Part shown: in pieces, positions 1,939-4,871 of the stretch
How the letters are laid out: each line of letters opens with the position of its first letter
Numbering within the stretch: the first letter of the stretch is position 1
Notes under the pieces: generated by a model
Database searches by the model: none
What the model saw: the letters and a program-made list of their open reading frames with translations, nothing else
What the model was told of the DNA's origin: nothing
Position numbers and translations under genes: made by a program
Assembly (NCBI GenBank): GCA_016280325.1
Contig: JAEEGM010000092.1
Location: forward strand, 1-36,349
Reading direction: 5' to 3'
DNA length: 36,349 nucleotides
From: Eubacterium sp.
GTDB lineage: Bacteria; Bacillota; Clostridia; Lachnospirales; Lachnospiraceae

Positions 1939-3156
1939 ATGGCTAAAATCGGAATCCTCGGCGGCAGTTTCAACCCGCCACATAAAGCGCATCGCGCTAT
2001 GGCTAAGGCTGCCTGCGAACAATACGGTTTGCAGACGCTGTATATCATGCCCAATTCACGTCCGCCTCACAAGTCGGATGAAGAATTCGTAAGCGACGAG
2101 CACCGCGTCCGGATGATCAAACTGATGATTGAAAGCATGAAGGACGGAAAATGCCGTTATTCGGACTTCGAGATAGAGCATGGTGGTGTCAGTTATACGT
2201 ATGAGACACTGACACGTTGGAAAAAAGAGAATCCCGAAGACGATATCTTCTTTATCATCGGCGGTGATTCCCTGGAAGCCTTTGACACCTGGAGGGAGCC
2301 CGGTATCATATCGGAGAAAGCCACGATGTTGGTGGCGCCACGTTCCGGGATGACAGAGAAGGAATTAAAAACCCTTTGTAAGGATTTTTCAAAAAAATAT
2401 ACGGGAGATTTCTTACCGCTCTCGATCAAATCTTCCTACGCCGAACTATCATCCACAAAGATTCGTAAGAAGCATGGTGAATCAGGAAGCCTTCCGGGTC
2501 GAGTGAAGCGTTATATCGAGTTGCATGGACTATACGGATGCAAGATGCTGACATATGATCAGGTTCCACAGGAAAAGGAACTTTTGAAGTGTCTGCATGC
2601 GACGCTTCGACCGAAACGGTACCGCCACACAATCGGAGTCGCGGATACGGCAGAGATGCTCGCGGAACGATACGCCGCTAATGATGATTCGTTTATTAGT
2701 AGTTCCAGGCAGGCGGGACTATTACATGACAACGCGAAATATTTCACCGATGCCGAGCAGGTCGCCCTTTGCGATGCATATGGCATCGAACTCACGTCCA
2801 CGGAGCGGGAAAATCCTTCCCTGATCCACGGAAAGCTGGGGGCATACCTTGCGGAGCACAGATATGGCGTAAAGGACGAGGATATCCTGAACGCAATCCG
2901 TTATCACACAGTCGGCAGGCCTCGGATGTCCCTCATGGAGAAAATCATCTACATAGCGGATTATATCGAACCGGGACGTGTGATCCCGGGCGCCCTCCAT
3001 CCGCTTGAAGAGATACGAATCCTCGTAACGCAAGATCTTGACAAGGCACTGGTCTTTGTTATCGAGAATACGATCGATTATCTCCAAAAGACAGGCAGAA
3101 CGATTGACGAAGCGTCCCTTGCCACGCTTCAATACTATACAAAAAATGGAATTTAG
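1939..3156 (+). CDS. nadD: Fused nicotinate-nucleotide adenylyltransferase (NadD) and YqeK-type HD-domain hydrolase
   Basis: GILGGSFNPPHKAH nucleotidyltransferase motif and SSTKIRKK at the N-terminal half; RHTIGVADTAEMLA...GLLHDNAKYF and IRYHTVG HD-type motifs at the C-terminal half; one uninterrupted 405-aa ORF. Confidence 0.9.
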   Translation: MAKIGILGGSFNPPHKAHRAMAKAACEQYGLQTLYIMPNSRPPHKSDEEFVSDEHRVRMIKLMIESMKDGKCRYSDFEIEHGGVSYTYETLTRWKKENPEDDIFFIIGGDSLEAFDTWREPGIISEKATMLVAPRSGMTEKELKTLCKDFSKKYTGDFLPLSIKSSYAELSSTKIRKKHGESGSLPGRVKRYIELHGLYGCKMLTYDQVPQEKELLKCLHATLRPKRYRHTIGVADTAEMLAERYAANDDSFISSSRQAGLLHDNAKYFTDAEQVALCDAYGIELTSTERENPSLIHGKLGAYLAEHRYGVKDEDILNAIRYHTVGRPRMSLMEKIIYIADYIEPGRVIPGALHPLEEIRILVTQDLDKALVFVIENTIDYLQKTGRTIDEASLATLQYYTKNGI

Positions 3157-3168
3157 CCGGCAAGTCGC

Positions 3169-3238
3169 TCAGATTCTATCGCCCTTCGAGGCGTATTTAG
3201 CGCATTCGCTACTTCGCCGAGAAGAAGATAGAATCTGA
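3169..3238. repeat. Cloverleaf-like structured element, copy 1
   Basis: 12-bp perfect outer inverted repeat TCAGATTCTATC/GATAGAATCTGA enclosing three short hairpins (CGCC-CTTCGA-GGCG; TAGCG-CATT-CGCTA; CTTC-GCCGA-GAAG). Confidence 0.8.
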
Positions 3239-3267
3239 ACGACAGACATGCAAATATACCATATCAG

Positions 3268-3339
3268 ATTTCATCGCCCCTCGAGGCGCATTGAGCGCAT
3301 GCGCTACTTCGGCGAGAAGAAGATAAAAGAAGATGAAAT
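3268..3339. repeat. Cloverleaf-like structured element, copy 2
   Basis: 8-bp perfect outer inverted repeat ATTTCATC/GATGAAAT around the same core as copy 1 (about 48/53 identical). Confidence 0.8.
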
Positions 3340-3376
3340 AGGATCGACATAAGAATTGAATCTTAGGAGAATAATT

Positions 3377-3733
3377 ATGAGTGAAACATCGATGACTATG
3401 GCCCGCGTCGCCTACGACGCACTGGATGAAAAACTTGGTGAGGATATCGAGATCCTGAAGATCGACGAGATATCCGTGATCGCCGACTATCTTGTGATCG
3501 CGAACGGAGACAACCCGAATCAGATCCGCGCCATGCTTGAACAAGTGGAACAGCGCATGAGTGAAGCCGGATTTGACTCCAAACGGATTGAAGGCAATAA
3601 AAACTCAACCTGGATCCTGATGGATTATGGGGATGTGATTGTACATATTTTTTCACGAGAAGACCGCCTTTTCTACGATTTAGAGCGTATTTGGAGGGAC
3701 GGAACCAAGGTTAATCGTGAGGATATCGGGTAA
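3377..3733 (+). CDS. rsfS: Ribosome silencing factor RsfS
   Basis: RsfS/DUF143 pattern (DYLVIANGDNPNQIRAMLEQVEQ, W.LMDYGDVIVHIF..E.R.FYDLERIW); RBS TAGGAGA before ATG 3377. Confidence 0.95.
   Translation: MSETSMTMARVAYDALDEKLGEDIEILKIDEISVIADYLVIANGDNPNQIRAMLEQVEQRMSEAGFDSKRIEGNKNSTWILMDYGDVIVHIFSREDRLFYDLERIWRDGTKVNREDIG

Positions 3734-4797: not shown

Positions 4798-4871
<74 letters not shown>

Follow-up and report, generated by a model that had tools for sequence, protein, structure and literature searches.

The 220-bp gap between nadD-yqeK and rsfS in the analysed window (a 36,349-nucleotide stretch of DNA from Eubacterium sp., family Lachnospiraceae) contains two copies of a ~80-nt hairpin-forming repeat. 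We consider this element, with a probability of roughly 0.7, to be a lineage-specific, non-coding, dispersed imperfect palindrome of the REP/ERIC/NEMIS/Efa kind that is apparently non-autonomous. On the best reading of the data, it represents a previously undescribed family that has spread within a single uncultured Lachnospiraceae species.

The gap extends from the stop codon of nadD-yqeK (1939-3156) to the start of rsfS (3377-3733), which has orthologues across the genus; the gene names are those given in the initial annotation, and both genes, like the two copies and their parts, are given on the plus strand. As that annotation had reported, the gap holds two related elements (3166-3349). 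Copy 1 (3166-3244), which starts 10 nt after the nadD-yqeK stop codon, matched the covariance model of the family with 97.9 bits, and both sides of its outer stem depart from the family consensus. Its outer arms, GTCGCTCAGATTCTATC (3164-3180) and GATAGAATCTGAACGAC (3227-3243), form an inverted repeat that, including the extension, spans 17 nt at 94% complementarity. The arms enclose an inner hairpin (3181-3226), delimited by fold and covariation, that is composed of the internal loop GCC/AA (3181-3183/3225-3226), the stem CTTC/GAAG (3184-3187/3221-3224), the internal loop GA/GA (3188-3189/3219-3220), the stem GGCG/CGCC (3190-3193/3215-3218), the internal loop TATT/CTT (3194-3197/3212-3214) and the apical stem TAGCG/CGCTA (3198-3202/3207-3211). 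Copy 2 (3261-3349; covariance-model match 3261-3339, 68.6 bits) combines the consensus outer stem, formed by the arms ATTTCATC (3268-3275) and GATGAAAT (3332-3339), with a degraded inner stem and an insertion of ~10 nt, AAGATAAAAG, at 3320-3329 beside the second AAGAT, where its exact placement is ambiguous. The fold of copy 1 was far better than that of shuffled sequences (z = -7.1 on the plus and -8.5 on the minus strand, with 0/200 shuffles as good), while copy 2 alone folded no better than its shuffles (z about -1). Given the fold scores of copy 1 and the 17 copies found genome-wide, the two elements are not a product of chance.

The self-complementary outer stems originally described, 12 bp in copy 1 (3169-3180/3227-3238) and 8 bp in copy 2 (3268-3275/3332-3339), were both recovered, and the family consensus together with the analysis of the arms explains why they differ: the stem of copy 1, ATTCTATC/GATAGAAT, is a doubly changed, deviant version of the consensus, whereas copy 2 carries the consensus itself, displaced by the insertion at about 3320-3329. 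The folding of each core into three consecutive hairpins, as in a cloverleaf, did not hold up, since one long hairpin was obtained both for copy 1 with RNAfold and for 16 copies with RNAalifold. The five core differences between the copies are indeed present, but the statement that all of them fall in loops or linkers is true of the cloverleaf only; under the supported fold, three of them (CTTC to CCTC, CGCC to CGGC and, in the basal pair of the apical stem, T to G) affect paired positions and disrupt the pairing in copy 2.

Covariation was evaluated in an alignment of 16 copies, from which copy 2 was excluded because of its insertion. Across the 27-pair hairpin, 94.2% of cells were paired, and double-sided changes occurred at 16 of the 27 pairs, in 43 cells (shuffle means 7.5 and 12.3), a level reached in 0/500 shuffles. 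Shuffling does not remove the kinship among the copies; sliding the partners keeps that kinship, and the slid versions scored far lower, with a covariation score of 0.327 for the true partners compared to 0.04-0.14. The compensatory variation that had been proposed from the two window copies is therefore real and strong. Double changes outnumbered G-U intermediates in the stems, while the unpaired elements GCC/AA, GA/GA and TATT/CTT were mostly invariant between copies. The helices that exist only in the cloverleaf showed one double-change cell against a shuffle mean of 0.9, and the inner helix that competes with them in the single hairpin showed seven (shuffle mean 2.5, 0/500). The cloverleaf was accordingly rejected, its own helices lacking covariation beyond the shuffle level.

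The host assembly is a fragmented, 90%-complete metagenome-assembled genome of 2.14 Mb and the one genome of its species in this analysis. Among named records, its RsfS was matched best by Lachnospiraceae metagenome-assembled genomes, on which we base the placement of the host as an uncultured member of the family. A BLAST search of this assembly with a 181-bp stretch returned 16 matches, a count that includes the window and one self-match on the reverse strand. With a covariance model built from 15 copies (copy 2 entered without its ~10-nt insertion), at least 17 strong copies (68-101 bits) were found on 12 contigs, along with one diverged copy, at C156, and reverse-strand self-matches. A pattern for the 5' half of the element gave 18 matches in the host genome compared to none for the reversed pattern, and a loop-based pattern added few new convincing members. 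The search of the host genome that the initial annotation had suggested thus yielded further copies, for a total of 17 good ones, and with these copies and the covariation in hand the repeat candidate survived the check for their absence. The diverged copy (L035:1501-1580, minus strand) adjoins a tgt-like gene and has kept the internal loops, although its stems differ; its 3' arm and flank, 27 nt in all, recur without the 5' arm at C91:10769-10795 (L158; 96%, E 1.3e-5). Partial copies were also observed. Half copies with a break close to the apex of the hairpin occur at C53, with a 5' half between 560 and 641 of L022, and at C15, where a 3' half accompanies a full copy (in L014 and L026, next to the C15 copy). 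A scan for mini-elements consisting of arms only produced one good case, the outer-arm remnant AGATCAGATGCAATCATATCGACA at C90:163-184 (L212), and one doubtful one. Cutting or deletion of the hairpin at the DNA level would be expected to leave such partial copies.

The ends of the element are inverted repeats whose sequence varies between copies. The 14-nt outer arms paired with their own partners at a mean of -15.9 kcal/mol, compared to -8.9 kcal/mol for arms swapped between copies; none of 10,000 permutations reached this value, and in each of the 16 copies the own pairing was stronger than the mean of its cross pairings. These swap tests show locus-specific complementarity without distinguishing between selection and template copying. 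Many departures from the consensus are double, and within individual copies (C53b, C120a and C97a) they form blocks. Template switching between hairpin arms has been proposed to leave multi-base compensated blocks in stems (PMC8794818), and the blocks seen here would fit such repair, but they could also stem from subfamily inheritance or selection. No obvious target-site duplication was seen in the flanks, which were read by eye. Read on the minus strand, 8/17 copies have TGTC or AGTC immediately at the hairpin foot, and none has GTAG.

All copies but one (C47) are intergenic, and in 9/17 copies a stop codon lies 2-18 nt away; relative to the nearest gene, 6 copies are in sense and 11 in antisense orientation by our count, with distances and orientations derived from simple ORF calls. 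Pairs are frequent, in tandem at C125 and C92 and inverted at C120, C97 and C53, where 21-81 nt separate the copies, and no cassette genes lie between paired copies. The genes adjoining the copies share no pathway. At the exceptional C47 locus (L019:443-1618), the copy overlaps in antisense the 3' end of a 392-codon ORF, whose final codons, as called, it contributes. The second C120 copy (L017, about 1580-1760) is spanned by a short ORF that at its end overlaps the ATG of the next gene; read by eye, this ORF has a hydrophobic N-terminus and a basic C-terminus encoded by the element.

Comparison of orthologous loci, as had also been proposed, showed that the yqeK-rsfS gap is short and element-free in five close congeners. 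The lepA-hemW gap is 140 bp in the host, with one antisense copy; in G012, G010 and G014 it is about 5-15 nt, and in G048 and G011 it is filled by other hairpins. With a single strain of the species in the comparison, mobility had to be read from these orthologous gaps, and the gaps, which are too diverged for base-by-base alignment, suggest that the 80-nt element is mobile.

Outside the host, the 5'-half pattern with up to 3 mismatches gave 0-3 matches per genome in 394 other genomes of the order, which is the level of the reversed control, and the exact pattern had no match in the GTDB 220 representatives. Among the congeners searched, the covariance model found only two weak look-alikes, both in G048 (E 3e-6 and 0.16). 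A search of IMG/VR viral contigs, phages and plasmids returned no match, and a phage, plasmid or viral origin was rejected on that ground. Likewise, the comparison with Rfam that had been advised gave nothing meaningful at the element even at an E-value cutoff of 10, and no hit there above the gathering score, so that membership in a known RNA family was rejected. The only Rfam family above the gathering score in the window was a tRNA gene at 4798-4871; elsewhere in the host genome, an S10-Clostridia ribosomal protein leader (RF03136) scored above the gathering score at L226:1042-1188 on the minus strand.

In the broad sense, the element has the properties of a dispersed palindromic repeat: many copies, an intergenic position near gene 3' ends and an empty orthologous site. 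ERIC, NEMIS/Correia, Efa and Ype are dispersed intergenic repeats of ~100 nt whose transcripts fold as one long hairpin (PMC1590033, PMC2229807), and the 80-nt element resembles them in its preference for gene 3' ends, its moderate copy number and its confinement to one species or group, although no sequence relation to any of the four was found. The terminal inverted repeats of NEMIS, ERIC and RUP are constant, and these families also have target duplications; in the 80-nt element, by contrast, the outer arms vary and are compensated. Its occurrence as extragenic palindromes downstream of genes, in both orientations and as dimers, recalls REPs, and the TGTC/AGTC at the foot of 8/17 copies may echo the TGTC variant of the REP CGTC tag. 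However, REPs measure 20-40 bp, with CGTC stems of 8-9 bp and loops of 4-5 nt (PMC3733652), while the 80-nt element has 27 pairs interrupted by internal loops; it is too long for the GTAG and CGTC classes of REPs. No Y1/RAYT transposase (PF01797) was detected in the 90%-complete host assembly by a search that was positive in control genomes, which led us to reject a RAYT-driven REP, although CGTC REPs, too, have no dedicated transposase in a published survey (PMC3733652). Rickettsia palindromic elements are also dispersed hairpin-forming repeats of ~100 nt, but they commonly lie in frame within genes (PMC2229807). Multi-base compensated stem changes are shared with RNA hairpins proposed to be maintained by template switching; that work (PMC8794818) concerns RNA genes, whereas the present family consists of paralogous DNA repeats in one genome, in which such a mechanism may operate. 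Since the element resembles stem-loop repeats, exceeds the length of REPs and is at most a candidate MITE, we regard it as a new family of the stem-loop repeat kind. In the REP and stem-loop literature searched, no family from Lachnospiraceae is described.

The initial annotation had left the choice between a REP/MITE-like family and a structured RNA. The repeat half of that proposal stands in the broad sense (17 copies, intergenic, in both orientations and in pairs, with short gaps in congeners), while an RNA bound to one strand is not favoured. A multi-copy structured non-coding or cis-regulatory RNA, in which a protein or ligand would bind the conserved unpaired loops and the helices would change under selection to keep pairing, would account for covariation around nearly invariant internal loops, for the sense orientation of both window copies between co-directional genes, and for the resemblance of the loops in G048 and in the diverged copy at C156. 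We nevertheless judge it unlikely: the antisense orientation of 11/17 copies argues against a strand-bound cis-regulatory RNA, the neighbouring genes have no pathway in common, the yqeK-rsfS gap of congeners does without the element, no Rfam family matches, and G-U intermediates are fewer than double changes. Still less probable is a site of single-stranded DNA recombination or replication, attC-like or REP-like, whose unpaired bases are read by a recombinase and which would be a natural target and not a selfish passenger. The free stems around invariant loops and the frequent pairs, three of them inverted at 21-81 nt, are consistent with such a site, but the missing cassette genes between pairs and the absence of a Y1 transposase from the 90%-complete assembly speak against it.

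Two further explanations appear very improbable. Intrinsic terminators that look alike by convergence would place hairpins near stop codons, and T runs do follow a few copies (C92b and C53b); however, no T run follows most of the hairpins, those of the two window copies among them, one copy sits within the yqeK-rsfS gap between two co-directional genes, and similarity over 80 nt indicates common descent and not convergence. The other, equally remote, is a coding element inserted in frame in the manner of the Rickettsia palindromic elements, for which the ORF running through the C47 copy and the short ORF across the C120 copy could be cited. The remaining copies are all intergenic and no frame is open in every copy; copy 1 has a stop in a frame that is open in others, in agreement with the earlier view that conserved coding is unlikely.

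As a dispersed, apparently non-autonomous palindrome, the 80-nt element may have spread through an enzyme acting in trans that recognises the folded single strand. Stems that vary freely around loops that do not suggest that the folded strand, and not a fixed end sequence, is what is recognised or selected. The arms might be kept complementary by intrastrand template switching in the quasi-palindrome, combined with counter-selection of copies whose fold is lost. Where the element is transcribed between co-transcribed genes, as it would be between yqeK and rsfS, it may at most act as an RNA hairpin altering the stability or processing of the flanking mRNA, by analogy solely with ERIC and NEMIS, which are reported to have such effects (PMC2229807).

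A second, larger intergenic hairpin family of ~150 nt was first met in the lepA-hemW gaps of G048 and G011. BLAST over 39 genomes of the genus gave matches in seven: the counts were 20 (G002), 13 (G011), 12 (G048) and 8 (host), and a small number each came from G010, G008 and G012 (members L223-L252, e.g. L242:1467-1614, L238:1456-1603 on the minus strand and L223:1503-1650 on the minus strand); a motif check of the window found none. The inner core CTCCGCTTGCGCCATT...ACGCAGCACTGCA...CTACGCAGTGGCGTT is conserved in 22 distinct copies, and the outer stems, self-complementary over 25-35 bp, are mostly locus-specific: one subfamily has a common outer stem, CCATACCG..., while the outer arms of the remaining copies are entirely different. 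Arms paired with their own partners at a mean of -44 kcal/mol compared to -21 kcal/mol when swapped. Most copies are flanked by genes of the same direction, and many are located 6-15 nt past a stop codon, about 15 in sense and 4 in antisense orientation by our count. No Rfam match was found in six loci and no match in plasmids, phages or viral contigs. In the lepA-hemW gap of G048 and G011, two to three ~45-nt repeats that match one another imperfectly, TTCATCCGAGGGG..CACCATTAG.TTTTGGAACAGGA, come after members of this family (L213:1160-1500; L217, reverse complement of 1746-2039), and in G002 only a 5' half is retained. Because the host has an 80-nt element in this same gap, the gap may be an insertion hot spot.

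The ~150-nt family poses the same question of arm complementarity with arms of 25-35 bp, and it is possibly a better lead than the 80-nt element. Only tentatively, and at rather long odds, do we suggest that the two families belong to a class of structure-recognised hairpin elements in this genus in which only a folded core with its internal loops is conserved, and local DNA at each site serves, by inverted template copying, to build or renew the outer stem; if this were true, every insertion would carry a private, well-matched long stem. The 80-nt element adds a repeat family to the Lachnospiraceae, and its paralogous copies, some 17 in number and bearing compensated changes in blocks, constitute a clean natural data set in which template switching and selection can be compared.
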